From the NCBI GenBank assembly GCA_947591575.1, contig CANQDI010000004.1:1-35980 (forward strand): a stretch of DNA of 35,980 nt. Reading direction: 5' to 3'. The notes beneath the pieces are model-generated. The model searched no databases. It was not told where the DNA came from and saw only the letters and a program-made list of their open reading frames with translations. Positions within the stretch are counted from its first letter, which is position 1, and each line of letters begins with the position of its first letter. The translations under genes and the position numbers were made by a program. Positions 9,856 to 35,902 of this stretch are shown here, piece by piece. Source of the DNA: an uncultured Bacilli bacterium. GTDB taxonomy: Bacteria; Bacillota_I; Bacilli_A; RF39; UBA660.

Positions 9856-9893
9856 ATACTATGAATGTAGCTAAAGAAAGGAGGAAATTTTTT

Positions 9894-10883
9894 TTGAAAT
9901 TTAAAAATGTAATACTTGGCATCATATTATCACTTTTTATTAGCATGCCACTAAATACATTTGCTTATTCAAAAAACTTAATTCCCGGTGGAGAAACCAT
10001 AGGTATTGAAGTCAATTCAAATGGTGTTTTAATTGTAGGTTTTTATAAAGTAAATGATACATATCCAGCGAAAGACGCTGGATTCTCAGTGGGTGATATA
10101 ATTTTAAAAATTAATCAACAAGAAATTAATAGTATTGAACAAATGGTAACTGTAGTCAGTCAAAGTGAAGACAAAAAAATAGATGTTACAATTTCACGAG
10201 ATCATAAAGAAGATACCCTTTCTTTTGAACTAATGCAAGATGAAAAAGGAATCTTAAAAACTGGACTCTATGTAAAAGATAATATTACTGGTCTTGGTAC
10301 ATTAACTTATATTGACCCAGAAACCCGAAAATTTGGTGCATTAGGACATGAAATACTAGAAAAAACAACTGCCAAAAAATTTGAAATAAAGGAAGGAAAG
10401 ATTTTTGAAGCAGAAGTAACAGGGATAACCAAAAGTGCAACAGGACATCCTGGTGAAAAAAATGCAATCTATAACAAAGAAAATGTATTTGGAACGATCA
10501 ATAAGAATATAGAGTCTGGTATATTTGGAACCTATAATACAACTCTCCCAGAAGATGAACCATTGGAAGTAGCTACACCCAATGAAGTAAAAACTGGAGA
10601 AGCAACGATTAAAACGGTTACCACAGACGATACAGTAAAAAATTATAAAATTCAAATTTTAAAAGTGAATCCGGAAGATGAGATGAAAAATATTTTATTT
10701 GAAGTTACCGATCCAACTTTACTAGAAGAAACAGGCGGAATTGTCCAAGGCATGAGTGGTTCACCTATTATTCAAAATCATAAAATCATTGGAGCCGTTA
10801 CTCATGTTATTGTCAGTGATGCTAAAAAAGGTTATGGAATATTTATTACAAAAATGTTAGAGGATAGTGAAAAAAGTGAGTAA
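9894..10883 (+). CDS. spoIVB: SpoIVB serine peptidase (sporulation signalling)
   Basis: In Bacillus SpoIVB is secreted from the forespore into the intermembrane space and cleaves SpoIVFA, which releases SpoIVFB to activate sigma-K. The chosen TTG start follows AAAGGAGG by 9 nt; an ATG at 9861 lacks any ribosome binding site and lies inside the region expected to be leader. This start gives 329 residues beginning with a membrane/signal segment (about 4-23), then a PDZ domain (about 40-115) and the S55 peptidase domain. The catalytic triad is visible as His152 in FGALGHEI, Asp273 in EVTDPTL and Ser288 in GMSGSP; the 15-residue Asp-Ser spacing matches Bacillus. recN and spo0A, its usual neighbours, are absent. 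Confidence 0.93.
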   Translation: MKFKNVILGIILSLFISMPLNTFAYSKNLIPGGETIGIEVNSNGVLIVGFYKVNDTYPAKDAGFSVGDIILKINQQEINSIEQMVTVVSQSEDKKIDVTISRDHKEDTLSFELMQDEKGILKTGLYVKDNITGLGTLTYIDPETRKFGALGHEILEKTTAKKFEIKEGKIFEAEVTGITKSATGHPGEKNAIYNKENVFGTINKNIESGIFGTYNTTLPEDEPLEVATPNEVKTGEATIKTVTTDDTVKNYKIQILKVNPEDEMKNILFEVTDPTLLEETGGIVQGMSGSPIIQNHKIIGAVTHVIVSDAKKGYGIFITKMLEDSEKSE

Positions 10884-17169: not shown

Positions 17170-18129
17170 ATGAAAAAGAAACTCTTTTATTTGACAGTTT
17201 TATCCAGCATATTATTTTGCTTATTTTTGATGCTATTTCAGCCTACCCTGACCATTTCTATTGCAAAAGAAGCACTTACTCTATGGAGAGAACGCTTATT
17301 CCCTTCTCTTTTTCCATTTCTTGTTCTTGGTGAAATACTAATATTACTAGGAGTAGCTCATTATCTTTCTTCCTTTTTTCAAAAACCATTTTCTTTTCTC
17401 TTTAAAACAAGTGGTGCTGCTTCTTTTTTGCTATTAATGAGTATGATTTCTGGTTTTCCAAGTGGTCCAAAATATATTGTTAGTTTATACCAAAAAAAAG
17501 AATTCAATCACGAAGAAGCAGGTAGACTCCTTCAAGTTGCCCACTTTTCGAATCCACTTTTCATTTTAGGAACGGTTTTCCTTACCCTAAAGAATCAAAA
17601 AATAACTTATTTTATTCTTTTTGCTCATTATCTTTCTAATTTTTGTATTCTTTTTTTAACACGTCCAAAAGAAACAAGAAACAAAAAAAGAAATCCTTCC
17701 TTCAAGGAAGTCTTTTTGAAGCAAACAGAAAATATATCAGATTTAGGACTTGGCCTATTAAATGCAGTTCAAAGTGGCATTCATACGATGCTATTTATGC
17801 TAGGATCAATTACTTTTTTTATGCTTTTTGCCACTTTTTTAGGAAAAATGATCCCCTTTCTTTCGCTTCGAATCATCTTCACAGGAATTTGTGATTTAAC
17901 AAGTGGCATCTTTCTTTTGGATACACCAGCTCTATCCTTATTTATCAAAGGTTTACTTGCTACTTCTTTTTTAAGTTTTGGTAGTTTTTCCGTTCATCTT
18001 CAAGTATTTAATGTCTTAAAAAATACAGATCTTTCTTTTTCTACTTTTTTGAAAGGAAGATGGAAAGCAACGCTTGTTTCAGGAATTTTATTTACTTTAC
18101 TTTGTATACTGAATGGGGGATGTTATTAA
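17170..18129 (+). CDS. ylbJ: Sporulation integral membrane protein YlbJ
   Basis: A multi-span membrane protein required for spore cortex formation in Bacillus, where ylbJ is expressed in the mother cell. The 319-residue protein has about eight hydrophobic segments. Family features are LWRERLFPSLFPFLVLGEIL, MISGFPSGPKYI and AHFSNPLFILGTVF, the latter two resembling paired re-entrant loops of transporters. It is shorter than the Bacillus protein (about 400). The ATG at 17170 follows AAAGGA by about 9 nt; a longer reading from 17077 would run antisense through the start of ylbL and has no ribosome binding site. Its last 33 bp overlap the convergent pilin gene. Confidence 0.88.
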   Translation: MKKKLFYLTVLSSILFCLFLMLFQPTLTISIAKEALTLWRERLFPSLFPFLVLGEILILLGVAHYLSSFFQKPFSFLFKTSGAASFLLLMSMISGFPSGPKYIVSLYQKKEFNHEEAGRLLQVAHFSNPLFILGTVFLTLKNQKITYFILFAHYLSNFCILFLTRPKETRNKKRNPSFKEVFLKQTENISDLGLGLLNAVQSGIHTMLFMLGSITFFMLFATFLGKMIPFLSLRIIFTGICDLTSGIFLLDTPALSLFIKGLLATSFLSFGSFSVHLQVFNVLKNTDLSFSTFLKGRWKATLVSGILFTLLCILNGGCY

Positions 18130-18603
18130 GATACGCTTATCTGTATCAAAATTCGGATGTTTCAAGATAATTTCGATTGAAAGAAACTGAGCCCCAACAT
18201 TTCCAATCGTTTGGAACTTATACCGATCAATTGTTAAATCAGCAATATTAGGAATGGGATAGTTTATTTCTTCATCCTTGATTCCATAGCGAATAGATTG
18301 TTCGTTTTCATCATCTTTCAAAACAATGAGGCGAGCTGTTTCGCTTGTACCATCTTTTTCCTCAAAAGTAAAGTTTACTTGATTGCCACTGATTGTAACA
18401 GAAGCTAATTTTCGTTTGATAAGGTCATCCTGAATCGTTTTTGTTAGCGTATTTATATAGGACTGAATCGTTGCTTCATAGGCAGCAATTTGTTCTTGGT
18501 TTCGATAGTTTAAGATCACATCAAAAAGACCAATCGCAATGGCAGAAACAATAATAAAAGAGACCAACAATTCAATAGACGTAAATCCATTTTTCTTTCT
18601 CAT
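18097..18603 (-). CDS. Type IV pilin-like protein (minor pseudopilin)
   Basis: A 168-residue protein with a class III prepilin leader: a short basic start (MRKKN), the cleavage site before Phe in GFTSIELLVSFII with Glu at +5, and then a hydrophobic helix. The rest is a beta-rich globular part (FTFEEKDGTSETARLIVLKD). It resembles ComGD/ComGF- or GspH-type minor pilins, but I cannot assign the subfamily. Its start overlaps the stop of the upstream pilin gene (ATGA), and its 3' end overlaps ylbJ on the other strand. Confidence 0.85.
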   Translation of the reverse strand: MRKKNGFTSIELLVSFIIVSAIAIGLFDVILNYRNQEQIAAYEATIQSYINTLTKTIQDDLIKRKLASVTISGNQVNFTFEEKDGTSETARLIVLKDDENEQSIRYGIKDEEINYPIPNIADLTIDRYKFQTIGNVGAQFLSIEIILKHPNFDTDKRILITSPIQYTK

Positions 18604-19189: not shown

Positions 19190-20536
19190 ATGGTTACTTA
19201 TGATTTTACAAAAGTACCTGTGATTAAAGTAGTCGATGATATTATTGTACAAGCAGCCAAAATGAATGCCAGCGATATTCACTTTGATCCTAGAGAAGAT
19301 GACCTATTAATTCGTATGAGAATTGATGGTGATTTACGAGATTATACCAGAATTCCAAAAGTTTATGAGCGTAATTTGATTACAAGAGTCAAACTTTTAT
19401 CCAATATGAACATCACAGAAAATCGTCTTCCTCAAGATGGTGCTATTAAAGGGGTCATTGGTGGTTTATCTTTAGATATGCGTGTTTCTACTCTTCCAAC
19501 CAATGAAGGCGAAAAATGCGTTATTCGTATTTTAGACTATTCTAGAAGTTTAGCAGGAATCGAATCATTGGGTTTTAGTAAACCAAATTTTGAAAAATTA
19601 AAGAAAATGATTGCTGTTCCTAATGGAATTATCTTAATTACAGGTGCTACTGGTTCTGGTAAGAGTACAACTGTCTACTCCATTTTACAACAACTTAATA
19701 AAGTCGAAACCAATATCATTACAGTAGAAGACCCTATTGAAATGAATCTTGAAGGATTAAATCAAGTACAAGTAAATAGTGAAATTGGACTTGATTTTGC
19801 TACTGTGTTACGTTCTATTCTTCGTCAAGATCCTAATATCATATTAATTGGTGAAATTCGAGACAGTGAAACTGCGAAAATTGCGGTTCGTGCTTCTATC
19901 ACTGGGCATCTTGTTTTATCTACTATCCATACAAATAACTCCTTAAGTACCATTGAACGTCTTTTGGACATGAATGTAGAACGGTACCTATTATCTACTG
20001 CACTTACTGGTATTATCTCTCAGAGACTTGCAAAAATGCTCTGTCCTCATTGTCGAGAAAAAGTACCTACAGATGCCTATCAAAAAAAAGTATTTAAACT
20101 AGCTTTAGGTATGGATATTAATGAAGTCTATAAAGCTCATGAAGAAGGTTGTAAAGAGTGTACACATGGGTATCGAGGACGAATTGCTATTCAAGAAGTG
20201 CTAGTTATTAATGATGAAATTCGCGATGCTTTAAATGATGAAAAATTGGAACGTGATTATTTAAGAAAAATGGTTTATACAAGTGATGTAATTACTCTAT
20301 TGCAAGATGGTTTAGGAAAAGTATTAGAAGGAGTTACCTCTTTTGATGAAATTTATCGCATTATTGATATAGATGATGATTTAGATGAAATGACAGAAGT
20401 AACCTTAACTCGAAAAGAACTACATGGAAGTAAGAAAAAGATTGCTCCACCACAAATTACGATTCCATCCCTTGACTCCTTTCTTGTTACCACTCCATAT
20501 CCAGGAACGCTACCCAATGAAAAGAAAAAATCTTAA
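19190..20536 (+). CDS. PilB/GspE/ComGA-type assembly ATPase
   Basis: Hexameric ATPase that powers pilus or pseudopilus assembly at the inner face of the membrane. The 448-residue protein begins directly with the N2 domain (MNASDIHFDPRED) and lacks the N1 domain of PilB/GspE, as ComGA does. Visible are Walker A GATGSGKST (152-160), the Asp box ITVEDPIE, Walker B ILIGEIRDSETA (217-228), the His box STIHTNN, and a tetracysteine zinc site at Cys285/288 and 321/324. A basic, Pro-rich tail of about 45 residues follows the usual end. AAAAGGAGG precedes the ATG. The platform protein and prepilin peptidase are not in the window. Confidence 0.94.
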   Translation: MVTYDFTKVPVIKVVDDIIVQAAKMNASDIHFDPREDDLLIRMRIDGDLRDYTRIPKVYERNLITRVKLLSNMNITENRLPQDGAIKGVIGGLSLDMRVSTLPTNEGEKCVIRILDYSRSLAGIESLGFSKPNFEKLKKMIAVPNGIILITGATGSGKSTTVYSILQQLNKVETNIITVEDPIEMNLEGLNQVQVNSEIGLDFATVLRSILRQDPNIILIGEIRDSETAKIAVRASITGHLVLSTIHTNNSLSTIERLLDMNVERYLLSTALTGIISQRLAKMLCPHCREKVPTDAYQKKVFKLALGMDINEVYKAHEEGCKECTHGYRGRIAIQEVLVINDEIRDALNDEKLERDYLRKMVYTSDVITLLQDGLGKVLEGVTSFDEIYRIIDIDDDLDEMTEVTLTRKELHGSKKKIAPPQITIPSLDSFLVTTPYPGTLPNEKKKS

Positions 20537-24266: not shown

Positions 24267-24728
24267 TTAATGATGTTTTTCTAAGAAAATCTTTCTGGTT
24301 ATAAAGTTAAATACCATAACAATAATAGTCGCAATTACCTTAGCAAGTAAATAATAAATAGCTATCAGTTTGATGCATAACCACATAATAAAATCATTTA
24401 AAAATAATCCAATTACACTTAATATAATGAAAAGGACAAATTGTCTTTTTTGGTCTTTTTCATGATCCACCTCAAAAACCCATTGAACACTTGCTATATA
24501 ATTGTAGATCACTGAAATACTAAATGAAAGTGTATTCGATAGTACAACAGGAAAATGAAGGAACTCTTTAAAAAGATATAGAAAGACAAAATCAATTATA
24601 GTGGCAATACCACCTACAATGATAAATTTAAAGATTTGAATACATAACTTTTCATGATCTTCTTTTAATGTTATATGAAAAAACTTCAAACACCTTCGAA
24701 CAAATTTAGCTATTTTATCTTGTTTCAT
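24267..24728 (-). CDS. GtrA-like four-span membrane protein
   Basis: A 153-residue protein with four membrane helices after a charged N-terminus (about residue 30 on). The family motif FIIVGGIATIIDFVFLYLF, followed by SNTLSFSISVIYNY and NFITRKIF at the end, identifies GtrA/DUF-type proteins. Members are thought to help translocate or present polyprenyl-phosphate sugars; in mycobacteria the relative Rv3789 is linked to arabinan synthesis. It is last in the tagH-tagG-gtrA transcript. AAGGAGG lies 8 nt before the ATG. Confidence 0.88.
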   Translation of the reverse strand: MKQDKIAKFVRRCLKFFHITLKEDHEKLCIQIFKFIIVGGIATIIDFVFLYLFKEFLHFPVVLSNTLSFSISVIYNYIASVQWVFEVDHEKDQKRQFVLFIILSVIGLFLNDFIMWLCIKLIAIYYLLAKVIATIIVMVFNFITRKIFLEKHH

Positions 24729-24741
24729 CTATAAAACCTCC

Positions 24742-25515
24742 TTAAAACTCCTCTACAAAACTTTTCTCTAATTTCTTGAAGATTTTATATCCACCAATTA
24801 AAGCAACAACACTGATGATACCCCAAATCCATAACATACGAAAGTCTGGCATTTCATGATAATAAAGAATTGCTCGGTAAGCTTCAACTAATTGTGCCAT
24901 TGGATTGAATTGTAATATCCATTGAAACTTTGCCGGTAACATACTTGCTTGATACACAATAGGAGTCCCATAAAAAGCAAGGGTCAAAAAAACACTTACG
25001 AAGTGATCAATATCTCTTACAAATACAGTGAGTGCTGATAAAATAAAAGTAATGGCAAGAGTTAAAACAGCTTGAATAAGGATTAGAAGTGGCATCAAAA
25101 GAAGATGATAAGAAAAACCAACACCACTGACTAAGATAAAAACAAACATAATGACACACGTAATTAAAAAGTTAACTAATTGTGAAAAGGTAATGGAAAT
25201 AGGAATAATTTCTCTTGGAAAATACACTTTTTTTAAAATATTTCCATTGGCAACAACACAACCTGTCCCAGACTGAATAGCGGTAGTAAAAAAATTCCAA
25301 GGAATTAAGGCAACAATCATAAAAATAGTATAGTTTTCAACATTAACCCTTAAGATATATGGAAACACAAATGCATAAACAGCTAACATTAATAGTGGGT
25401 TTAAAAAAGTCCAAAGAATTCCTAACCAAGATCCCTTATATTTTCCTCTTATTTCTTTTTTAATATTATTTTTTAATAGCTCACGATACTGGTATAACTC
25501 ACGAAACACTTTCAT
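24742..25515 (-). CDS. tagG: ABC-2 permease of a polysaccharide/teichoic acid exporter
   Basis: Membrane subunit of an exporter that flips lipid-linked polymers outward. The 257-residue protein has six membrane segments and the family motifs LLKNNIKKEIRGKYKGSWLG near the start, then ILWTFLNPLLML, and NPMAQLVEAYRAILYY near the end. The ATG at 25515 has GGGTGA 4-5 nt upstream; an in-frame GTG at 25527 overlaps the end of tagH. The gene symbol follows the closest known system (TagG/RfbA-type), and the exact substrate is not known. Confidence 0.9.
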   Translation of the reverse strand: MKVFRELYQYRELLKNNIKKEIRGKYKGSWLGILWTFLNPLLMLAVYAFVFPYILRVNVENYTIFMIVALIPWNFFTTAIQSGTGCVVANGNILKKVYFPREIIPISITFSQLVNFLITCVIMFVFILVSGVGFSYHLLLMPLLILIQAVLTLAITFILSALTVFVRDIDHFVSVFLTLAFYGTPIVYQASMLPAKFQWILQFNPMAQLVEAYRAILYYHEMPDFRMLWIWGIISVVALIGGYKIFKKLEKSFVEEF

Positions 25516-25519
25516 TCTA

Positions 25520-26263
25520 TCACCCACAAACTCTCAAGTATTCTTCTAATACTTCATCAACAGCACCATCTTTTCGAATTTCTCCTTGATATAACCAAAC
25601 AGCGCGATCACAGAATTTTTTTACCTGATCCATACTATGGGTTACAATCACAATGGTTTTGCCTGCTTTTTTTAATTCCATTAATTTATCAAAGCATTTT
25701 TCTTGAAAATGTTGATCTCCAACTGCTAAAATTTCATCAATAAGCAAGATTTCTGCCTGCACATTGATCGCTACAGAAAATGCAAGACGCATATACATAC
25801 CAGATGAATATGTTCTAACAGGATTATCTATAAATTCTCCTAGTTCTGAAAAAGCAATAATCTCATCAATTTTAGCATCGATTTCCTTCTTTGTGAGTCC
25901 AAAGATAGATGCATTAAAATAAATATTTTCTCTACCTGTAAAATCATCATGAAATCCAGCACCTAGTTCTAGTAAAGAGGTTAATTTCCCATGTGTTGTA
26001 ATTTTTCCTTTATTTGGATAGATAATTTTTGTCATTAATTTTAATAATGTTGATTTTCCACTTCCATTGGTTCCAATTAAAGCAATACTTTCCCCTTTAT
26101 GAATCGTTAAATTAATGTCTTTTAACACCGTTAGTATATCATTTTTTGCTCGACTACTTTTTGAGAAAAAAAGGATTTTTTCTTTTAATGTATTCGCCTT
26201 ATCGTAATATAATTTAAACGTCTTAGTTACATTTGTAACTTTAATTGCGATATTTTTCTCCAC
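25520..26263 (-). CDS. tagH: ABC ATPase of a polysaccharide/teichoic acid exporter
   Basis: ATPase partner of the permease directly downstream. Walker A is GTNGSGKST, the signature YSSGMYMRL, Walker B ILLIDEILAVGD and the switch His in VTHSMDQV. The N-terminal TFKLYYDKANTLKEKI is typical of TagH/Wzt-type ATPases. It is 247 residues and lacks the C-terminal extension that in TagH or Wzt recognises modified chain ends. The GTG at 26263 is chosen because AGAGGT lies 6 nt upstream; an ATG at 26281 has no ribosome binding site. Confidence 0.92.
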   Translation of the reverse strand: MEKNIAIKVTNVTKTFKLYYDKANTLKEKILFFSKSSRAKNDILTVLKDINLTIHKGESIALIGTNGSGKSTLLKLMTKIIYPNKGKITTHGKLTSLLELGAGFHDDFTGRENIYFNASIFGLTKKEIDAKIDEIIAFSELGEFIDNPVRTYSSGMYMRLAFSVAINVQAEILLIDEILAVGDQHFQEKCFDKLMELKKAGKTIVIVTHSMDQVKKFCDRAVWLYQGEIRKDGAVDEVLEEYLRVCG

Positions 26264-26307
26264 AGCAATACCTCTTTTCATAAAATATAGGTGTTTTCTA
26301 TAGTATC

Positions 26308-26336
26308 ATTATAATCTAATGAATCATTTTTTTCAA
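26308..26336 (-). promoter_or_regulatory. Promoter of tagH-tagG-gtrA
   Basis: Minus strand TTGAAA (26336-26331), 17-bp spacer, TATAAT (26313-26308). It is flanked by a 9-bp inverted repeat AGTATCATT (26302-26310) / AATGATACT (26357-26365) whose first arm overlaps the -10. Confidence 0.75.
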
Positions 26337-26366
26337 CTGAATGGTCTCGCTATATAAATGATACTT

Positions 26367-27359
26367 CTATTTCTTTGGTTTTTCTTCCAATATTTTTTTG
26401 ATTTCTTTTGTCACAACTTTATATCCCTTTTCTGATAAATGAAGTCCATCGGTTGTATAAGATAAATCTAGATTTTTATTTTCATCCATTAATACAGAAT
26501 ACATATCCAAATATTGATAATGATTCTTGGTACTTTTTTGCTTTAACATTTTATTGATATTTCTAATTCGTTTATTATCTCGCTCTCCCACCATCCAATC
26601 AATTACAACATCATTATCTGTTGTCGCATTTACGGGATAAATTGATTCAACATAGATAAGAGCATTGGGCCTATTTTGGTAAATTTTATTGGTAATCGTG
26701 ACAATATCATTGACGATTTCTTTATCGGTTCGATGAGATAAATCATTCGTACCTACTAAAAGAAAAACTTTTGTAGGATTATAATCATATACTCTCTTTT
26801 TTAGGTCACTTATTATGCTATAGGCTGTATTACCAGAAACACCACTATTGACAGTAGGAAGATTACCATAATATGAATCGAGTTGATAAAATTCTGTAAT
26901 ACTATCCCCCAAAAAGACATAATTTTCTACCTTTTGATCCATTGGTTTTGCATCTATCTCTTTTGTAAAAATGAAAAAAAGAAATAGAAAAAGTAAGACA
27001 ATAAAGAGTGTAAAACTAAATACTTTTATAAAATTACTTTTCTTTTTTCGTTTTTGCTCTTGCTTGATCTCTTTTACAATCGTATCTATATTTTTGGTAA
27101 TAACAACTTGTTTATTGGCAGCAATCTTTTGATCAATTCGATCCTGACTATGATAGACAATAATATTTTTTTTCTGAGCTAATAGATAATATATTTTTTC
27201 CTTATTATAGTCAGTAATAACAAGACGACTTTTCTTACTATTTTTCCTTGTGTAAAGTTCTTCGCCTTCTAAACAAAAAAATTTACTATTTTTTATCTTT
27301 GACGATATTTTTTTAATGAGTTCCTTACTCTCTTCATTTTTCATAGAAATTAAGATCAT
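26367..27359 (-). CDS. Membrane-anchored SGNH hydrolase/acyltransferase
   Basis: Probably adds or removes O-acyl groups on a cell-surface glycan. Residues 1-108 form a cytoplasmic, basic region that I do not recognise (contains LVITDYNKEKIYYLLAQKKN). One membrane helix (110-131) follows, then an extracellular SGNH domain with Ser153 in FLGDSITEF, block III GTND at 203-206 and the Asp304/His307 pair in TDGLHLSEKGY. It is 31 bp downstream of an acyltransferase-3 gene, and such pairs work together in O-acetylation (OatA has both parts in one protein). The N-terminal cytoplasmic domain is unusual for this family. Confidence 0.88.
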   Translation of the reverse strand: MILISMKNEESKELIKKISSKIKNSKFFCLEGEELYTRKNSKKSRLVITDYNKEKIYYLLAQKKNIIVYHSQDRIDQKIAANKQVVITKNIDTIVKEIKQEQKRKKKSNFIKVFSFTLFIVLLFLFLFFIFTKEIDAKPMDQKVENYVFLGDSITEFYQLDSYYGNLPTVNSGVSGNTAYSIISDLKKRVYDYNPTKVFLLVGTNDLSHRTDKEIVNDIVTITNKIYQNRPNALIYVESIYPVNATTDNDVVIDWMVGERDNKRIRNINKMLKQKSTKNHYQYLDMYSVLMDENKNLDLSYTTDGLHLSEKGYKVVTKEIKKILEEKPKK

Positions 27360-27389
27360 GATATCACTTCTTTCAAGTTCTCTTACATA

Positions 27390-28451
27390 TTATAACTCTT
27401 TTTTTATTTTTATTGCAGAAAAATTTATTTTTTGAATCCATGGAATGATTTTTTTCGTAAAAAAGGTATAACTACGTTCTAAAAGGATAGCACCAATCGT
27501 AGTCATAAAAAGATTCATAAAAAGACAAATTCCAAATTTCATAACATCGTTTTCAAATGAAAGATACGGTAAAATAAAATATAAAAGGGATGCAGATATG
27601 CCTTGCATAAAATAAAAGTAAATCGCATTTTTTCCAATATAATTCAGTTTATTTTCTTTTTGAATTTTTAAATGGCGAAAGAGATACCAATAAAGAATAA
27701 GAGATGGTAAAGACACAAATAAATATGGAAAAGATGGTGGAAATTTTGTAGTTTGAAAAGCAGTAATATCAAGGTGTAAAGAAGAAAAAACAAGACAAAG
27801 TAAACTGACTGCAATAAGCTCTAATAGAATAAGCTGCTTCTTATTTTTTAAAGAATAGTAGTGAGCTAAATAACCCAATATAAAAAGAATAGAATAAAAA
27901 GATAAATAAGTATCAAAAAACAAAAACGTTGCTCCTGAAAAAGATTGATAAGCAAAAATAAGAAAAAGGATTTCTAGAACTATTTTTAAATACTTTAAAA
28001 CATTTTCTTTTCCGAAATACTGAATTGTACAAATCGTAATGGAACAAAAAATAGAGACTTTCATATACATGATAATATACCAAATAGAACCACTTACTAC
28101 ATTTAAAGCATTTGAGTTAGGAAAAGAATAAAAGAACCAAGAAAAAAAATCTAAAAAATGAAAATCTGATCGAAAAAAGACAAGAATGATCAGGGTATAA
28201 AAAAGAAGAAAGAAACACCATTTTTTCCAAATGGTCCATAGTCCTTTAAGTGATTTGATAACAGAATTGCTATAATGAAAGGATATTCCTGAAATAAAGA
28301 TAAATAAAGGAACATCTATCAATAAAGTCAAATTTATAAACCAGCTAGGTAGATAAGTTTCTCCAGACCAAAAAGCTGTATGGATTACAACAATCCATAA
28401 AGCTGCAATGGCTCTTAAAAAATCAATTGTATAATTTCTTGTTTTTTGCAT
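27390..28451 (-). CDS. Acyltransferase-3 family membrane protein
   Basis: A 353-residue protein with about ten membrane helices. The N-terminus shows the family signature IDFLRAIAALWIVVIHTAFW, with the likely catalytic His22, and LTLLIDVPLFIFISGISF follows, as in OatA/WecH-type transferases that move acyl groups across the membrane. It lacks a fused SGNH domain; the gene immediately downstream encodes one. The ribosome binding site is weak (GAGAG about 12 nt away). It lies 42 bp after the HAD gene and is probably in the same transcript. Confidence 0.9.
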   Translation of the reverse strand: MQKTRNYTIDFLRAIAALWIVVIHTAFWSGETYLPSWFINLTLLIDVPLFIFISGISFHYSNSVIKSLKGLWTIWKKWCFFLLFYTLIILVFFRSDFHFLDFFSWFFYSFPNSNALNVVSGSIWYIIMYMKVSIFCSITICTIQYFGKENVLKYLKIVLEILFLIFAYQSFSGATFLFFDTYLSFYSILFILGYLAHYYSLKNKKQLILLELIAVSLLCLVFSSLHLDITAFQTTKFPPSFPYLFVSLPSLILYWYLFRHLKIQKENKLNYIGKNAIYFYFMQGISASLLYFILPYLSFENDVMKFGICLFMNLFMTTIGAILLERSYTFFTKKIIPWIQKINFSAIKIKKEL

Positions 28452-28493
28452 ATAATGATCAGTCTCTCTTTCTAATTTTTGTATGTTCCTTCT

Positions 28494-29069
28494 TTATTTT
28501 AAATCATCTTTCCTTACTTTTTGAATGGTACCTTTTTTTACAAGGTAAGCTTCTTTTGCATAAACAAACATAGGCCGATCAGCCTGAATAGAATCTGAAT
28601 AAAATTTTTGAATCGTTCCTTTTGGATATTTTTCCTCATATCTTCTTACTTTTTCAACATCATGACAATTAAGAGAATTCAATTTCCCTGTCTTTTTATC
28701 TACTTTGGTTGCAATGACTTCTACTTTTAATTTTTTCTCTAGAGGTTTTAAAAGAAACTCTGGAGATGCTGAAATAATCAAATCTGTTTTCTCTTTTTGT
28801 TCTAAATACCAAGGTGCAATTTTCTTTTCATGCTCATTCCAAAACGCTTTCACATCATCATCAATATGATCCATTTTTTTTAAAAAAGAGAAAAATTTTT
28901 CTTTTAAATACGTTTTATTTTTTATTCGAAACAAATAAAGCACCACGCCAAAAATTTGAATGGGTAAACACAAGAGTACTTTTTTATTTCGCATCAAACA
29001 AAAACGATAAAAATCAACACTAGAATCTCCATTATAAATAGTTCCATCAAAATCATAAACATTGATCAT
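28494..29069 (-). CDS. HAD-family phosphatase, likely acts on polyprenyl-phospho-sugar
   Basis: A 191-residue HAD phosphatase: motif I YDFDGTIY with nucleophile Asp6 and Asp8, motif II ISASPEF, a Lys region, and motif III/IV FYSDSIQADRPM. A hydrophobic stretch lies in the cap (LLCLPIQIFGVVLYLF), which could associate with the membrane. Its ATG overlaps the UbiA stop (ATGA). This pairing is the reason to suggest that it removes the 5-phosphate from polyprenyl-phospho-ribose-5-phosphate. HAD domains fused or adjacent to this UbiA type are known, but the substrate here is inference. Confidence 0.85.
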   Translation of the reverse strand: MINVYDFDGTIYNGDSSVDFYRFCLMRNKKVLLCLPIQIFGVVLYLFRIKNKTYLKEKFFSFLKKMDHIDDDVKAFWNEHEKKIAPWYLEQKEKTDLIISASPEFLLKPLEKKLKVEVIATKVDKKTGKLNSLNCHDVEKVRRYEEKYPKGTIQKFYSDSIQADRPMFVYAKEAYLVKKGTIQKVRKDDLK

Positions 29070-29938
29070 AATAAATATAACAATCCTCCCAATACAACAA
29101 TATATAGGAGTCCTGCAAAAATGAGTTTTTTATCTGATAGAATTACTTCAATAGGATCTCCATGAGAATTTCCTTCAATATCGAGACTATATAACTGTAA
29201 AATAATCATCAGTAAAGGAATTGTCCAAAATAAGTAATCATGACCAATTCTTGCAACTGTTACAGGATCAACACACCATAATGTATAAGAGACAATGGCA
29301 AGTGATAAAGAGACATACATATTTTTGTCTAAGAAATCTTGATTATAAAATTTTAACACTTTTCGACCGACTTCTCCATTTTTAATGATCTCATTTCTTC
29401 TTTTTCCAAAACCCAAATAGAATGAACCAAAAATAATCATAAGATAAAGATATTTAGAAACATCAATTTGTGTAACAACGCCACCATACATGACTCGAAG
29501 CACAAAACCAATTACGATGGTAACAACATCCATAATAGGAATATGTTTTAACCATTTGCTATATAGAACGTTCATCAATAAATAAGTGAGTGGAATTACA
29601 AAGACAAAAATATTATGACTTTCTATATAAAGTAAATACATGCATATGATAAGACAGAAAGCAATCAAAAACGTGACAAAATAAGCTTGTTCCTTTGAAA
29701 TAACACCCGCTGCAAGTGGACGTTTCTTTTTGACTGGATGAAGTTTATCTTTTTCTATATCATTAATATCATTTAGTACATAAACGATACTGGATGTAAA
29801 AGAGAAAACAAAGAAAGCAAGTATAGCGGTAAAAATATAGGATCCATCAAAAAGATGAATACTAAAGAAGATAGGAAGAAAAATAATACCATTTTTGAGC
29901 CAATGTTTTATTCGAATAAGTTGAAGATATTTACTCAT
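29066..29938 (-). CDS. UbiA-family polyprenyl-phosphate phosphoribosyltransferase
   Basis: An integral membrane prenyltransferase of 290 residues with eight to nine helices. The first metal motif, from Asn56, is NDINDIEKDKLHPVKKKRP, i.e. NDxxDxxxDxxHPxKxxRPxAxG. Together with IRIKHWLKN near the start and FGKRRNEI plus FYNQDFLD later, this is the signature of decaprenyl-phosphate phosphoribose synthases such as Rv3806c rather than of quinone UbiA or heme CyoE. The expected reaction is polyprenyl phosphate plus PRPP giving polyprenyl-phospho-ribose-5-phosphate. GGAGG precedes the ATG. It overlaps the upstream glycosyltransferase by 8 bp. Confidence 0.92.
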   Translation of the reverse strand: MSKYLQLIRIKHWLKNGIIFLPIFFSIHLFDGSYIFTAILAFFVFSFTSSIVYVLNDINDIEKDKLHPVKKKRPLAAGVISKEQAYFVTFLIAFCLIICMYLLYIESHNIFVFVIPLTYLLMNVLYSKWLKHIPIMDVVTIVIGFVLRVMYGGVVTQIDVSKYLYLMIIFGSFYLGFGKRRNEIIKNGEVGRKVLKFYNQDFLDKNMYVSLSLAIVSYTLWCVDPVTVARIGHDYLFWTIPLLMIILQLYSLDIEGNSHGDPIEVILSDKKLIFAGLLYIVVLGGLLYLL

Positions 29939-31661
29939 TGATTTCTACCTCCAATCGCCATGAATACATATATCGCATTTTTTCTTGATCAATTTGATCT
30001 ACCACTTGATAGTGAATATTGTGATCATTTAACGTGTAATAATAACCGTATAAATCTGATGTTGATATTTTTAATTTTACATTATCCATATTAGATAATT
30101 CTACTAAATCATCATTAATTTCTTTGAATGTCACTATCTGTTTTGAACTAGCATAAAGAAATATTCCTACATTCATACATAAGATCAAAACCGTTATCCA
30201 AATGCATCCTCGTAACCATTTATTCTTATGAATAGTTTGAAGAACATATCCTCCAAGCAAAATAGCACCTACTGGAAGTAGATAAAACTGTGGTACATAC
30301 CTAGCCCACCAAGATTCTTTCAATAATATCATACTAAGTAAAATAGAAAGAATAGGTAATATTACATAAAAGCAAGATTTCTTTTTCTTTTTGATAAACA
30401 TTACAAAAGCGATTCCAAAGGTAATAATGCTAGCTAATAACCCTAAAGCAAATAATGGACCAAATCCCCCTATTCTAATATCAGGTACATTTAACTCATC
30501 TATTTCAGAACGATATACTTTAAATGGAAGTTTTAAAATAGGTGCTTTATCATAATATGTTACATTTTTTGTTCTAGAAAAAAGAGAAATCATCCATTTT
30601 TCAATAGCTGTTTTATTTTCAAAAGATTTTGGTTGCATCGTAGTAATAATATCTACTTTACCCTCTCCCATTAAAGGATATAAAGGATTATGATGATCTA
30701 CCAAATTTTTGATATAACTATTAGAACCAACTATTAATATGGCTATGAGGAAAGTAAAAATGAAATGGAATGTAATATTTCTAAAGCGTAATGGAAAATC
30801 TTTTTCTTTGCGATACTTCCAAAACCAGTAAAAATAAAAAATAGCTGCAATAACTCCAGAACACATTAATCCTGTAAATTTAAGATTCGAAAAAATAGTA
30901 CAACATGCAATCATCATAAGCCAAAGAAATGGATTCTGTTTTTTCATTGGATTCACTAAAAACAATAAGAAAAGTTCTATTCCAAAGAAAATACCCATGA
31001 TACCATCCACATAGTAAGAAAAAATCTGAGAAAGAACTACTGGATTGAATACAATGAGAGAAGATACTAAAATGCTCCATTTCTTATCAATTATTTTTCT
31101 TAAACAATAATAACTTATTATCCATAGCATCAGAGAAAAAATAAAGGTAATACATTTACCACTTTCGATGTTTCCTGTCATATTATAAATTGTCGCAGCA
31201 AGAATCCAGGTGGCTTTTGGATAATGTTCAATCCATAAATCAATGTTTGTATCCTCTGCGATTGGAATGACATTTTTATTTTTCTCCTGAAATGATCTAC
31301 TATCTTCATAAAGAGGATTCCAACCATTTTTGATAAATGCAATCGCCGTTTTATGATAAGAATTCCCATCACATGTTATATCAAATGTCTTGTTATACAG
31401 AAAAGGTAAGACTAATAATAAAAATAGGAAACCAAATAAAATGTATTTTTGATGAGGATTAGATTTTCCTTTCTTCAAGTAAACGATGATAGGAAGAACG
31501 ATACTGATGATTTGAATCAATGTAAAACAGTTTTTTGTTAAATTTAAAAATTGAAAGATTGTATAAAGTAGTAAAACCGATAAAAAATATCCAGATAACA
31601 TTACTACTAAATACATAGATTCATTTCTTTTTGGTAATGTCATAGTTTTTTCATTTTTCAT
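29931..31661 (-). CDS. GT-C membrane glycosyltransferase
   Basis: A 576-residue protein with about eleven to thirteen membrane helices. It has the GT-C architecture: an Asp in the first large external loop (FDITCDGNSYHKTAIAFIKN) after the first helices, further loops with ESWWARYVPQF, and a short soluble C-terminal part. Enzymes of this type (ArnT, Emb and related) use polyprenyl-phosphate sugars as donors outside the membrane, which fits the UbiA and HAD genes that follow. AAAGGA precedes the ATG. The sugar and acceptor are unknown. Confidence 0.82.
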   Translation of the reverse strand: MKNEKTMTLPKRNESMYLVVMLSGYFLSVLLLYTIFQFLNLTKNCFTLIQIISIVLPIIVYLKKGKSNPHQKYILFGFLFLLLVLPFLYNKTFDITCDGNSYHKTAIAFIKNGWNPLYEDSRSFQEKNKNVIPIAEDTNIDLWIEHYPKATWILAATIYNMTGNIESGKCITFIFSLMLWIISYYCLRKIIDKKWSILVSSLIVFNPVVLSQIFSYYVDGIMGIFFGIELFLLFLVNPMKKQNPFLWLMMIACCTIFSNLKFTGLMCSGVIAAIFYFYWFWKYRKEKDFPLRFRNITFHFIFTFLIAILIVGSNSYIKNLVDHHNPLYPLMGEGKVDIITTMQPKSFENKTAIEKWMISLFSRTKNVTYYDKAPILKLPFKVYRSEIDELNVPDIRIGGFGPLFALGLLASIITFGIAFVMFIKKKKKSCFYVILPILSILLSMILLKESWWARYVPQFYLLPVGAILLGGYVLQTIHKNKWLRGCIWITVLILCMNVGIFLYASSKQIVTFKEINDDLVELSNMDNVKLKISTSDLYGYYYTLNDHNIHYQVVDQIDQEKMRYMYSWRLEVEINE

Positions 31662-31700
31662 AAGTAATTCCTTTCTTTTCGAATGTATTCCCTGATCATT

Positions 31701-32651
31701 TTAATTCCAAAAAAAATGATAGAAAAGGCAATATAATTTTGATAATCCTTTATTTTTTTCAATATTTCTTTGTAAAAAACTCCTTGATTCATAATATTTG
31801 TTCTTTTTATAATCAGGAATTTCTTTTTTCATATAAGAAAATGCTTCATCGATAAATTTCATTGCTATTTTTGGGTCTTTTTGATTTCTCTGTTGAATTG
31901 TATAATTTGTAATCATTCTAATCGTTAATTTATCAAGATCCTCTTTTAAATAGGATTCTTTTTTCCATTTCTTACGGATGAGATCAATGATTCTTAAAAT
32001 ATCAAAAATGCGTTCATCACGAATAGTTGTTTCACTGTTTTGATGCATCACATAATTGATGAGGGGCTTCTCTACTTTTCCGACCTTTTTCGCATATAAC
32101 AGACTATCTACCACAAAAGGGGCATCCTCATATTTTAAATCTTCTATAAATCGAATATGATGCTTAGAAAGAAGAGTACTCTTATATAACTTATTCCAAG
32201 GAGATAAATTAACACTTTTTAATAGAGTTGGCATCTTTTTTAAAGTAGTATTTTTAAAAGAAGGCAATTTTTCTATTTTTGATAAACCATTTTGAATTTG
32301 ATAATAATCACAAAGAACTAAATCTAAGTCTTCTTGTTCTGCTTTTTGGTAGAGCACTTCACAAGCATCTTCTTCCAAATAATCATCACTATCTAAGAAC
32401 ATGATATACTTTCCAGTTGCCTTTTGAATTCCAAAATTTCTTGTTTTTCCAATTCCTTGATTTTTATTTCGAAAATACTTGATTCGATGATCCTTATATT
32501 TTAGAATTTTTTTTTCAGTATCATCGGTTGAACCATCGTTTATCAATATAAACTCCAACTCTTTTTTTGTTTGAGTAAGAAGAGATGTTAGACACCGATC
32601 AATATATTTTTCAGCATTATAAATCGGTACAATAATACTCATATCAGGCAT
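31701..32651 (-). CDS. Family 2 glycosyltransferase
   Basis: A 316-residue cytoplasmic GT-A transferase. The N-terminus SIIVPIYNAEKYIDRCLTSL, then NDGSTDDTE, NFGIQKATGKYIMFLDSDDYLE and the later KYEDAPF region are the canonical GT2 parts, with DSDD as the DxD-like metal/sugar nucleotide site. It has AGAGGTGA 4-6 nt before the ATG. It follows a related but clearly distinct GT2 gene by 21 bp; both probably build repeat units on a lipid carrier. Confidence 0.9.
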   Translation of the reverse strand: MPDMSIIVPIYNAEKYIDRCLTSLLTQTKKELEFILINDGSTDDTEKKILKYKDHRIKYFRNKNQGIGKTRNFGIQKATGKYIMFLDSDDYLEEDACEVLYQKAEQEDLDLVLCDYYQIQNGLSKIEKLPSFKNTTLKKMPTLLKSVNLSPWNKLYKSTLLSKHHIRFIEDLKYEDAPFVVDSLLYAKKVGKVEKPLINYVMHQNSETTIRDERIFDILRIIDLIRKKWKKESYLKEDLDKLTIRMITNYTIQQRNQKDPKIAMKFIDEAFSYMKKEIPDYKKNKYYESRSFLQRNIEKNKGLSKLYCLFYHFFWN

Positions 32652-32672
32652 TTTCTCACCTCTTCGCTACAT

Positions 32673-33593
32673 TTATCTTATCTTAAATCGATTAAAAAGT
32701 CTAGGACTTATTTCTAAGAGTATTTTCTTGATTTTTCTTTGAAATGTATCGGTTAAAAGATCATCATATACTTTCTTTTTCTTGATTCTTTTTAGATATA
32801 ATTGATAATCTTTTTTATTTAATTCACAAATTTTTAGTATCATACTATTTGCAATAAAACTTTTGAAAATTGTAGTATCAACATCTACTTTTTCAATCTC
32901 TTTTTTTAAAAATAAATAATGATGATAAAAATCGTTCACTTTCTTTTTTGTAAAGCGATCTTCATGATTATTCATAATACTACCACTTCGGCGATAATAG
33001 TTATAACCGATATAAGAAATGGAATGTACTTTTTTGGCTTTTATAATAACAAGAGGAATCAATCCAAAATCTTCATGAACTGTATGCGCTTGAAAAGCAA
33101 ATTTTTCTTGTTGATAATATTTTCTTCGATACGTATAACACCAAGCATTTTCAACAAAATGATATTTTGATAATAACGAAAAAGCATCTTCCCCATTCTT
33201 ATTGAAAAAAGGAATTTCTTCATATTTCGTTACTTCTCCTTGATCCGTAACTGTCTGGACTTGAAAACGAACAAGATCTGGTTGATCCGAAATATTTTTT
33301 GCTAAATTCTTCAGTAAATCTTTTTCAATAAAGTCATCGCTATCAACAAAAACGAGATATTCGCCTTTTGCTTTTTCAACCCCAATGTTTCTAGCAACAC
33401 TTACTCCCTCATGTTTTTGATGAATTACTTTGAAAGGATATTTTTTCACAAAATCCATACTATGATCTGTAGAGCCATCATCAACAATGATCACTTCATA
33501 ATCTTGATAAGTTTGTTTCATAATACTTTGTAAGGTTCTATCAATATAGTCTTCTACATTATATACTGGAATAATAATACTAAACTTTGGCAT
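32673..33593 (-). CDS. Family 2 glycosyltransferase
   Basis: A 306-residue GT-A transferase with SIIIPVYNVEDYIDRTLQSI, VDDGSTDHS, ARNIGVEKAKGEYLVFVDSDDFIE and VHEDFGLIPLVI. The start codon overlaps the upstream stop (TAATG) and the ribosome binding site GAGGTGG lies in the last codons of the fusion gene, so the two are translationally coupled. Substrates are unknown; it is a paralogue of the next gene, suggesting an old duplication. Confidence 0.92.
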   Translation of the reverse strand: MPKFSIIIPVYNVEDYIDRTLQSIMKQTYQDYEVIIVDDGSTDHSMDFVKKYPFKVIHQKHEGVSVARNIGVEKAKGEYLVFVDSDDFIEKDLLKNLAKNISDQPDLVRFQVQTVTDQGEVTKYEEIPFFNKNGEDAFSLLSKYHFVENAWCYTYRRKYYQQEKFAFQAHTVHEDFGLIPLVIIKAKKVHSISYIGYNYYRRSGSIMNNHEDRFTKKKVNDFYHHYLFLKKEIEKVDVDTTIFKSFIANSMILKICELNKKDYQLYLKRIKKKKVYDDLLTDTFQRKIKKILLEISPRLFNRFKIR

Positions 33594-35902
33594 TAAACCA
33601 CCTCGTCAAATAGATTTTCAAACTGTTTTCTTTTTTGCTTTTGAATTTTTTCAAAATCTATTTTTTTGCTTCTTGGCTTCTCTTTGAGAATTTCTTTGAC
33701 TTCTTCCACCATTTTCTTTTCATCTTTTGAAATAATATCGGCGTAGTCTTTTCCCATTTGAAAAAATTCATCAGAAACATCAATCGTTGTAATAATCCTT
33801 TTTTCTAAAAGAATTGCTTCTAAATAAATGACAGGAAAACCTTCATAATCAGAAGTTAAAAGAATATAATCAGCCATTTTCATATAAGGATAAGGATTCA
33901 TTTGCTTTCCTAAAAAATATACTTTTTTTTCTAGTTTTTCTCGAGCAACAAGATCTTTATACATTTTCTCATCTTTTCCTGTTCCCACAATCCATAGCTT
34001 TGTATTTAAAATATTTTGAACAAGATAAATGGCTCTTTTTAATTTTTTGGAGGAATCATCTAATCGACCTACAAAAACAAATAAAGTTTCTTTAGGCTTT
34101 GTAAGCGAAATCGGTTCCAGACTTTTTTTCTTAATTTCTTCAATTGGAATAAAATTGTTGATGACTTTTATTTTTCCTTCTAAGGAAGGATATATTTTTC
34201 GAAAAGATGCAGCTGATTCATTAGAGACAAACAAAATATGACGGTACTCTTTTATATGTCTTTGATCAAAGAATTCTCTAAATTTTTCTTTAGATGGATA
34301 AACATATCGATAGTCACTGTGAACATAAAAAGCATTGTTAGAAGAAGCCACTTGCGCAATCTTATTTGAACTAAATGAATAAGTTGTATAACAACAACTA
34401 AAATCATAACAATGATAGTAAAAAAGAGTAAAAAAGAACTTTCGCATACAATTGATTATTTTTCGAATAAAAACATTAGAGTGATTACTTACTTTCAATT
34501 CTTTTATCAAAACATCTGGCTTTATTTTTTTTAATAGAGGTCCTTTTGCTTCTTCTAACATACATGTTACTTCATATTTTTTAGTATCAATGTTATTTAA
34601 CAGATTTACTTGTGAATTTTCAATACCTCCAATTTCCATATTCACGCCCGCGAATAATAGTGATTTCTTCTTTCTCTTTGCAAGAGAGAGAATAATGATA
34701 CAAGCAATAAGAGATACAGAAGGAGCCGTGATAATATGCCCTGTAAAAAAAGATAAGAACAAGATAAAGGCAAACGATAAGAGTAACATATATCTTTCAT
34801 AATGATGTTTTCCGTTTTGTTTTAATACATTCATGATTACAAAGGAAAAAACACCAAAAAACAAGATAAATCCTACAAGTCCATGATGAAAATAAATATC
34901 AAAGTAGTCTATTTCTACTAATTTTGTTGCTTTCTTTTGATGAAAATAACCTATTCCAAAGAGTTGTTGGTAAAAAGGTGCTTGTTGATATAATTTTTTT
35001 TCTTTATAAAAAAAGGAAAAACGTTGACTAAAAATAAAATGATCTATTAATTTTTGGTCTTCAAATACTTCAGTAATATTCTGTATTTTTAAGTAATCAA
35101 GATGTGTTTGAATGTTCTTATAAAAGTTTGTCTTTGGTAAAAGAAAAGAAAAACCAATCGATAGTATAATGAGAAGTGAAAAAGAAAGAGCCACTACTTT
35201 ATATCGTTTTTTCTTCATACAATCAATCCAAAAGTAAAGAATTGTAAACCCTATCGTTATCAATAAAGTTAAAAGAGGTGTTTTGGTTCCTATTGTTAAG
35301 ATGACAACTATATACATGATAGCTACAACAACGGATATGAAAAAAAACTTCTTATCGTAAAATAGAAGAAACATTATAGGTGTCATGAGAGAGATAATCC
35401 CACTAATTTCATTCGCGGAGTGAAAGAAACCTAATGTTCCTGCTTTAGTAATTTCATATGATTGATACCCAATATGAAATAATGAAGGTACAAAAATAAA
35501 GAACAAATACATCAATAAAGTAGAAAATAAGACCATCTTACTTATTCGAATTGAATCTTTTAGATAATAGAAAGATATTAATAAAATTGGAAAATAAAAT
35601 GTTTTTACAAGGCCTTGAAGTTCTTGAAAAAGAAAAACATTTTTTTGGTATAAAAATAACCCTAAAAGATAAAAAATGCTATAGCAACCAAACAAAAGGT
35701 AAAAAATCAATGCTTTCTTTTGATGAAATACAAATGGTGTTACTATCATGATAAATGCTAAAAATAATACTCTTACAATGATACCAAATGTGATATTAAT
35801 ATTCCATATATGAATACTGATTCCTGTAATTAAATCAATGATTGGTTGAGCTAAAATAAAAATAGATAAGATCATATTAATATTTTTCTTTATAAAATCC
35901 AT
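33593..35902 (-). CDS. Polymerase/ligase-like membrane protein fused to GT4 glycosyltransferase
   Basis: A 769-residue two-part protein. Residues 1 to about 408 contain ten to twelve membrane helices and O-antigen ligase/Wzy-type features (FFHSANEISGIISLMTPI, GTKTPLLTLLIT, LFGIGYFHQ, DIYFHHGLVGFILF). A basic linker near 410-415 (AKRKKKS) leads to a GT-B fold glycosyltransferase of family 4 (GVNMEIGGIENSQVNLLNNI; VFVGRLDDSSKKLKRAI; DYEGFPVIYLEAI with the E-x7-E-like motif). No stop or frame break lies between them. The ATG at 35902 has AGGA 5 nt upstream; a GTG at 35914 is in the ribosome binding site. It is the first gene of the locus seen here. Confidence 0.9.
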   Translation of the reverse strand: MDFIKKNINMILSIFILAQPIIDLITGISIHIWNINITFGIIVRVLFLAFIMIVTPFVFHQKKALIFYLLFGCYSIFYLLGLFLYQKNVFLFQELQGLVKTFYFPILLISFYYLKDSIRISKMVLFSTLLMYLFFIFVPSLFHIGYQSYEITKAGTLGFFHSANEISGIISLMTPIMFLLFYDKKFFFISVVVAIMYIVVILTIGTKTPLLTLLITIGFTILYFWIDCMKKKRYKVVALSFSLLIILSIGFSFLLPKTNFYKNIQTHLDYLKIQNITEVFEDQKLIDHFIFSQRFSFFYKEKKLYQQAPFYQQLFGIGYFHQKKATKLVEIDYFDIYFHHGLVGFILFFGVFSFVIMNVLKQNGKHHYERYMLLLSFAFILFLSFFTGHIITAPSVSLIACIIILSLAKRKKKSLLFAGVNMEIGGIENSQVNLLNNIDTKKYEVTCMLEEAKGPLLKKIKPDVLIKELKVSNHSNVFIRKIINCMRKFFFTLFYYHCYDFSCCYTTYSFSSNKIAQVASSNNAFYVHSDYRYVYPSKEKFREFFDQRHIKEYRHILFVSNESAASFRKIYPSLEGKIKVINNFIPIEEIKKKSLEPISLTKPKETLFVFVGRLDDSSKKLKRAIYLVQNILNTKLWIVGTGKDEKMYKDLVAREKLEKKVYFLGKQMNPYPYMKMADYILLTSDYEGFPVIYLEAILLEKRIITTIDVSDEFFQMGKDYADIISKDEKKMVEEVKEILKEKPRSKKIDFEKIQKQKRKQFENLFDEVV

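Follow-up and report, generated by a model that had tools for sequence, protein, structure and literature searches.

Background

In Citrobacter youngae O1/O2, a polyprenyl-phosphate phosphoribosyltransferase (PPPRS), a HAD phosphatase, a MATE flippase and a GT-C glycosyltransferase (GT) act upon an ABC-exported polysaccharide, and the sections of that study available to us (Kelly et al. 2024, PMC11127046) place candidates for the three-component system in gram-positive bacteria as well. Lactococci, in the accessible portion of another account (PMC10821137), combine an ABC-exported chain with one that is polymerised externally. Here we describe a block of eleven genes with likenesses to both systems, at 24267-35902 of a contig from an uncultured Bacilli bacterium (CANQDI010000004.1, assembly GCA_947591575.1). 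The window analysed is the whole of this contig (C4), 35,980 bases in length; the assembly holds 950,836 bases in 73 contigs and is 95.9% complete, which limits the search for PF01943-type proteins. We interpret the block, with a probability of roughly 0.7, as a swappable wall-glycopolymer cassette, the product of which would be an ABC-exported, LCP-attached, acylated and pentofuranose-decorated polymer. This reading draws on family identities, the predicted fold of the GT-C protein, the motifs of the UbiA protein, the recurrence and co-transfer of the block, HAD fusions in relatives, and PNPT and LCP genes encoded elsewhere in the genome.

An acylated, pentofuranose-bearing wall polymer had been proposed in an initial annotation of the window and remains the best reading, now with the exporter included on the strength of a conflict between gene trees. 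The same annotation did not recognise the outcome as a described system; that it is undescribed as a whole is not supported: as far as the accessible parts of both papers extend, the pentose arm corresponds to the system of Kelly et al. 2024 (PMC11127046) and lactococci already combine both routes (PMC10821137). Most of the parts are known; what is unusual is the combination of a joining enzyme fused to a glycosyltransferase with an ABC pump, where no dedicated flippase was found. The locus would place a pentofuranose three-component system within an exchangeable cassette for a wall polymer in uncultured Bacilli with small genomes, and it offers a compact gene set for asking whether ABC export can supply a polymerase of Wzy type.

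The gene block and its described relatives

All eleven genes lie on the minus strand, according to the open reading frame (ORF) list and a Pfam scan of the window that left out about ten ORFs outside the block. The functional assignments of the initial annotation all stand, positions included, and its count of ten genes was one short. Several adjacent genes overlap by 1-8 bases, and the widest gap, of 85 bases, precedes the ATPase gene. In order of transcription, the genes are:

33593..35902, minus strand: fusion of an O-antigen-ligase/Wzy-like membrane domain with a C-terminal GT4 glycosyltransferase, opening the block (PF13425, E 3.4e-45; Glycos_transf_1, E 2.6e-18)
32673..33593, minus strand: GT2 glycosyltransferase a, GT2a (PF00535, E 6.3e-36)
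31701..32651, minus strand: GT2 glycosyltransferase b, GT2b (PF00535, E 6.3e-40)
29931..31661, minus strand: glycosyltransferase of predicted GT-C fold, candidate pentofuranosyltransferase, 576 residues
29066..29938, minus strand: UbiA-type polyprenyl-phosphate phosphoribosyltransferase (PPPRS/DPPRS), 290 residues (PF01040; match to 8j8j)
28494..29069, minus strand: HAD phosphatase, candidate 5'-phosphoribose phosphatase, PRP (PF12710, E 2.9e-14)
27390..28451, minus strand: AT3 membrane acyltransferase (PF01757, E 1.2e-16)
26367..27359, minus strand: SGNH (GDSL-type) esterase/acyltransferase, with a hydrophobic segment in its sequence before the catalytic domain (PF13472, E 5e-20)
25520..26281, minus strand: ABC exporter ATPase, TagH/Wzt-like, 253 residues (PF00005, E 1.8e-21)
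24742..25527, minus strand: ABC exporter permease, TagG/Wzm-like (PF01061, E 1.5e-19)
24267..24728, minus strand: GtrA-type flippase, candidate carrier of a lipid-linked pentose (PF04138, E 8.2e-26)

Like the Citrobacter system, the block encodes a UbiA-family PPPRS, a HAD protein and a GT-C protein, which would likewise decorate an ABC-exported polysaccharide. It differs in keeping PPPRS and HAD as separate genes, in having a GtrA-type flippase instead of a MATE-type one (Pfam found no MATE-type protein among the eleven block proteins), in the lack of any recognised epimerase in the block, and in an exporter ATPase too short, at 253 residues, for a C-terminal carbohydrate-binding domain; in addition, the host carries LCP genes and the block an O-antigen-ligase-like domain. 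With the mycobacterial arabinan pathway (Rv3806c, Rv3789, DprE1/E2, Emb/Aft) the block shares a homologous phosphoribosyltransferase, a small flippase and GT-C transferases, whereas its phosphatase is a HAD protein and not of the Rv3807c type, and no ALO-domain (DprE1-type) oxidase was found in the window genome by a search that was positive in Corynebacterium glutamicum. The likeness to the lactococcal rhamnan and polysaccharide pellicle, as the accessible text presents them (PMC10821137), would lie in ABC export, external polymerisation and GtrA/GT-C decoration combined in one wall polymer, but the present block has no dedicated Wzx and would use a pentose donor where lactococci use a hexose. 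Nor does the block contain dTDP-rhamnose genes, for which no genome-wide search was made; Rml-like genes, judged from the N-terminus only, lie near the exporter in one congener (G005). Finally, the bimodular O-antigen ligase WadA (PMC10920833, in its available part) also pairs a ligase-like membrane domain with a soluble glycosyltransferase, but its soluble domain is GT25 and ours GT4, and a catalytic His is not established here.

The predicted pentofuranose arm

We read UbiA, HAD, GtrA and GT-C as a pentofuranose three-component system with the roles predicted for them: the block holds a motif-bearing UbiA protein, a phosphatase of HAD type by family, a predicted GtrA flippase and an enzyme of predicted GT-C fold. 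The UbiA protein matches the mycobacterial decaprenyl-phosphate phosphoribosyltransferase 8j8j (E 1.5e-35, residues 5-285 of 290), and its score against the closest NCBIfam model, PRK12324, falls just below the cut-off (221.6 against 234 bits). Residues N56, D57, D60, D64, R180 and E183 are invariant in 5 homologues, and those of the ND..D...D and R..E motifs align with residues mutated by Kelly et al. (PMC11127046, in the sections available). Judged by its sequence, the protein is a phosphoribosyltransferase relative with intact motifs.

The HAD protein has a DxD near its N-terminus; sequence and profile searches of it and of the GT-C protein against solved structures returned chance matches only. 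The sole Pfam signal of the GT-C protein, Wzy_C, is below cut-off, and its assignment comes from an AF2 model (pLDDT 83.7). Foldseek placed ArnT, ALG12, Pmt4 and AftA first, two of these with E < 0.001, and ranks 1-46 of a VIA-align search were all GT-C transferases or complexes containing GT-C-like chains (the STT3 and PIG-U chains among them), followed at rank 47 by an unrelated structure with Z 6.8. The alignments covered 360 residues of Pmt4 (Z 15.9, rmsd 4.3), 382 of ArnT (Z 15.0, rmsd 5.2), 341 of AftD (Z 12.9, rmsd 4.5) and 368 of EmbB (Z 10.5, rmsd 4.8). By predicted fold, the 576-residue protein is a GT-C enzyme; its D94 and D98 are invariant across 12 homologues.

Relatives of the arm were sought by scanning 84,980 species genomes with a UbiA alignment, which found at least 223 relatives and returned 80 loci (L numbers below); two of these had no UbiA ORF by our own caller, and our counts cover the remaining 78. 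Among the listed loci, 47 of 78 have a HAD ORF no more than 3 kb from UbiA, and 19 of 78 a protein matching a narrow GT-C profile. Four of the six long HAD proteins scanned by Pfam are HAD-GtrA fusions, each beside UbiA (L048:6942-7910, L050:3452-4543, L079:4774-5757 and L128:5304-6260), and HAD and GT-C share a single ORF in L049, L067, L068 and L100, of which L067 and L068 are near-copies. Because of these fusions, the sequences tie UbiA, HAD, GtrA and GT-C into one predicted pentose pathway, and the fusions with HAD suggest that GtrA-type proteins can serve as the flippase of a lipid-linked pentose. As no ALO-domain oxidase was found, ribofuranose is the likelier product. Arabinofuranose was considered and is less likely after that empty search, though an unrelated epimerase could exist.

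The pentose might instead be destined for a protein of the cell surface, for instance a pilin; glycosylation of this kind has been proposed for the type IV pilin of Pseudomonas (PMC11127046, available sections). One protein of the contig does match N_methyl (pilin-type) weakly (18097-18603; 18.3 bits against a cut-off of 21.2), and an ATPase encoded on the opposite strand to it resembles PilB/GspE by eye (19190-20536). The pentose genes, however, sit inside the exporter block and not beside these pilin-like genes, and they recur with the exporter elsewhere, which leaves pilin glycosylation very improbable.

Two further observations concern these families. The remaining two of the six long HAD proteins form a tandem pair in L065 (9790-13973; 695 and 681 residues) in which Pfam recognises HAD only, each protein having some 500 extra residues outside any Pfam family. 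In congener G002 (contig C9), a 51-residue UbiA remnant lies between ORFs (L059:4226-4378), which would suit a loss of the pentose arm.

The exporter and its probable co-transfer

The best NCBIfam models for the exporter ATPase are those of teichoic-acid export ATPases and Wzt, all below their cut-offs. At E 0.001 the permease is the single PF01061 match in the window genome; one such match was found per genome in all 6 members of the genus examined, and in 4 of 5 congeners it lies on the contig of mutS, as it does in the window. The stretches fetched around the exporters of the five congeners include SGNH in three, a glucosaminidase edge gene in three, and different glycosyltransferases.

The history of the exporter would seem to depart from that of its host. 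In a MutS tree the window groups with the five congeners (support 100/99), to which its MutS is 78-85% identical, against 46-69% for ten genomes of the G060-G070 series. In the exporter tree it groups with seven block genomes (support 100/100), at 75-82% identity against 61-63% for the congeners. The same conflict is seen for G064 and G067 (MutS 54-55%, exporter 75%), on contigs of 25-29 kb. The exporters of G062 and G063 are near-identical, yet the MutS of G062 is 46% identical to that of the window; the 8.6-kb contig of G062 may be misbinned, which would affect one of the seven genomes of the exporter clade. The MutS search covered 23 genomes and gave 22 matches (none in G063), of which the tree took 19 plus the window, leaving out G008, G012 and G071 (fragment); the exporter tree used 17 genomes plus the window, with G061, G065, G066 and G070 lacking a complete exporter pair in the fetched sequence. 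Because the two trees conflict, we assign the exporter to the block, and the sequences indicate that the cassette was most likely exchanged between genera together with it. The initial annotation had allowed that homologues might reveal the exporter as an unrelated neighbouring unit, a possibility that we reject on the tree conflict.

Recurrence and gene order

Comparison of gene order in related genomes, which the initial annotation had suggested as a check, finds the block in other metagenome-assembled genomes in variable order. Among the first 12 listed loci (L065-L076), 8 carry the fusion of ligase-like and GT4 domains and 7 a complete exporter pair; the two occur together in 5 (L065, L068, L069, L072 and L073, in each case within the same cassette), or in 6 if L071, with its cut ATPase, is counted. 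Of the others, L066 and L076 stop short of the exporter, L067, L070 and L074 start beyond the fusion, and neither is present in L075. In L069 and L072 the exporter precedes the fusion, and GT2a comes directly after the fusion in L065, L068 and L071. Because the same gene set recurs in other genomes, its assembly is more than chance.

The window ends with its contig, and the side upstream of the fusion was therefore read in relatives. A Wzx and complete capsule set in that place would have spoken against the initial annotation; in L065, L066, L068 and L071 the neighbour is instead a divergent gene for a membrane protein with PASTA repeats (by Pfam in three, by alignment in L066), while in L073 and L076 the place is taken by a divergent ORF. 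This neighbour was considered as an LCP ligase and rejected, since Pfam finds PASTA repeats and no LCP domain (L065, L068, L071), and its sole significant BLAST match to a true LCP protein is the PASTA stretch.

Recurrence also bears on whether the fusion belongs to a separate Wzx/Wzy-type capsule pathway that adjoins the exporter unit by accident. A PF02397 sugar transferase on contig C67 would suit such a pathway, as would congeners G001-G003 (L055, L054 and L053), which keep an unfused, divergent O-antigen-ligase-like gene away from the exporter. The shared cassettes of the five loci named above tell against accident, as does G027, where the fusion accompanies an exporter of a different clade, and we regard this explanation as improbable. 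In those three congeners the unfused gene stands beside an LCP gene, confirmed by Pfam in G003 and a look-alike in G001 and G002; in the window genome an LCP gene is retained on contig C5 in a matching context, where no ligase-like gene was found.

The fusion protein

The mechanical ORF of the fusion opens at GTG 35914, from which its residues are numbered here. By eye, the ATG at 35902 makes a more convincing start, with an AGGA-like ribosome site directly before it and most aligned relatives beginning nearby. An extended -10-like sequence, TGTTATAAT, also seen by eye only, lies directly upstream of the fusion; a promoter scan gave 93 matches against a shuffled mean of 93.1, and no promoter is claimed.

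In an AF2 model (pLDDT 78.2) we count 12 predicted transmembrane helices, of which numbers 9 and 10 are joined by a long loop; the soluble GT4 domain comes after the last. The GT4 half aligns with HepE (Z 29.2, rmsd 3.5, 336 residues) and occupies all rows of the fold search, so that the missing ligase rows are no evidence; when the membrane half was compared with solved structures by profile, a single chance match and no ligase structure came back. Arg298, Glu334 and Asp336 are invariant in 16 aligned homologues from block, congener and family genomes, and the latter two lie at the end of the long loop, directly ahead of the next helix, a position assigned without superposition on a ligase structure. 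In clan GT-C1, according to the available part of PMC10920833, most inverting polymerases have Glu or Asp where ligases have His. The invariant residues fit these polymerases, and the sequence leans towards a polymerase.

These residues also bear on whether the fusion is a bimodular ligase in the manner of WadA, with the GT4 domain finishing an acceptor to which the membrane domain transfers the ABC-exported chain. WadA itself sets a precedent as a ligase-glycosyltransferase fusion (PMC10920833), and pairing a ligase with ABC export is usual for O antigens (PMC11127046), each as given in the accessible part of the source. Glu334 and Asp336, however, are invariant in 16 of 16 homologues and fit polymerases rather than the His of ligases, with the same caveat on superposition, and the genome encodes two LCP proteins, which usually serve as the wall ligases; a WadA-like role is quite unlikely.

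Among 59 relatives examined, one full-length fusion, in G027, is 45% identical, and more distant O-antigen-ligase-like relatives fused to GT4 (25-27%) occur in G011 and G026. A second kind of polymerase-glycosyltransferase fusion was seen in L093 (4131-6329), where an O-antigen-ligase-like domain is joined to a WecG/TagA-type glycosyltransferase (732 residues).

Flippases and the feeding of the putative polymerase

The absence of a Wzx from the window, remarked on in the initial annotation, was borne out for PF01943: none was found there, and the whole-genome search matched two proteins only, one SpoVB-like (contig C24) and one MurJ-like (contig C3). No dedicated Wzx was found with PF01943 in block or genome; divergent flippases could escape this family, as does a 407-residue G030 protein, flippase-like, which matched no family. 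Contig C24, with its PF01943 gene at the left end, was considered as a continuation of the window; its protein is rejected as a dedicated Wzx, being SpoVB-like and having likely orthologues in G063, G064 and G067 that lie off the block contigs. The MurJ-like gene on C3 stands beside a cluster (L046, 504-7007) of a 1523-residue FtsK/SpoIIIE-like protein and small helical proteins that resembles type VII secretion by eye.

Each of 14 other genomes has at least one PF01943 protein: G071 has one, G030, G063, G064, G067 and G070 exactly two, and the rest more, some block genomes being richer in them (G060 has four). The pairs in G063, G064 and G067 are likely orthologues (41-50% identity) of the SpoVB-like and MurJ-like proteins of the window genome; in G070 the MurJ-like protein was matched and the second, of 472 residues, matched no reference. 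No PF01943 protein lies on the block contig of G060, G063, G064 or G067, the genomes in which that contig was recognised, by length and overlap. By sequence, four cassette genomes (that of the window, G063, G064 and G067) show no dedicated PF01943 Wzx. A rough flippase profile of our own reached 60 bits in 2 of the 78 UbiA loci (L107 and L108); built from seven proteins, two of them without a Pfam match, it is too mixed to prove absence elsewhere.

How, then, would a Wzy-like domain be fed? One possibility is a hybrid of lactococcal type, in which the exporter carries one chain. A Wzx-type flippase with its gene outside the block would turn over a second lipid-linked unit, which the fusion would polymerise and which would be joined to the first chain outside. 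Such an arrangement is described for Lactococcus (PMC10821137, accessible part); the G027 cluster unites the fusion, GT2a, GT2b, an ABC pair and a PF01943 protein, and in G026 a GT4 fusion clusters with PNPT, a PF01943 protein and a second, weaker flippase-like protein, with no ABC pair recognised in 19 kb. The four cassette genomes, in contrast, each have only the SpoVB-like and MurJ-like proteins, a point that is not decisive as PF01943 misses some flippases, and the block offers two chains just three cytoplasmic glycosyltransferase domains (two GT2 and one GT4 by Pfam). Two separate chains are possible, if on balance unlikely. Another suggestion, offered tentatively and against the odds, is that the ABC exporter replaces Wzx, delivering undecaprenyl-diphosphate-linked units that the Wzy-like domain would polymerise outside, with pentofuranose and acyl decoration to follow. 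If true, this would be a third route of wall-polymer assembly (TagGH/Wzm-Wzt plus Wzy), in which the glycosyltransferase fused to the polymerase helps to complete the unit. A housekeeping or undetected flippase may also feed the domain.

Proposed pathway

Within the cassette reading, synthesis would begin with a TagO-type enzyme, encoded elsewhere, priming undecaprenyl phosphate, to which GT2a, GT2b and the GT4 domain would add sugars in the cytoplasm. The exporter, TagGH/Wzm-Wzt-type by family, would carry the lipid-linked glycan outward, where the O-antigen-ligase-like domain, most likely as a Wzy-type polymerase, would join glycan to glycan, the least certain of these steps. For the decoration, UbiA would convert PRPP to polyprenyl-phosphate-ribose-5-phosphate, HAD would strip the 5'-phosphate from the lipid-linked ribose, GtrA would flip the lipid-linked pentose and the GT-C enzyme would transfer ribofuranose onto the polymer. 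AT3 and SGNH would acylate it, and an LCP protein would attach it to peptidoglycan. The window genome encodes two PNPT proteins, one of them in a MraY-like setting by eye, and two LCP proteins, which fit a primed, exported and LCP-attached wall polymer. The gene immediately upstream of GT2a encodes a PNPT in L069, and in G067 a protein whose N-terminus is nearly identical.

Several observations weigh against the cassette reading. No sugar-nucleotide genes were found in the block, and the separate PF02397 transferase on C67 points to a second polysaccharide. The fusion may be a polymerase or a ligase, and the GT-C protein is only 6-14% identical to solved enzymes. UbiA was matched in 5 of the 59 relatives besides the window genome, one match being a 51-residue fragment, and no congener among them has an intact copy. 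The window GtrA shares 70% identity with one that congener G002 encodes next to a glucosaminidase, and so may be a general flippase, resident and shared, and not specific to the pentose; CflA of Lactococcus is such a shared resident flippase (PMC8035078, available part).

Elsewhere in the window, 9861-10883 encodes a SpoIVB peptidase (PF05580), in a genome of less than 1 Mb.

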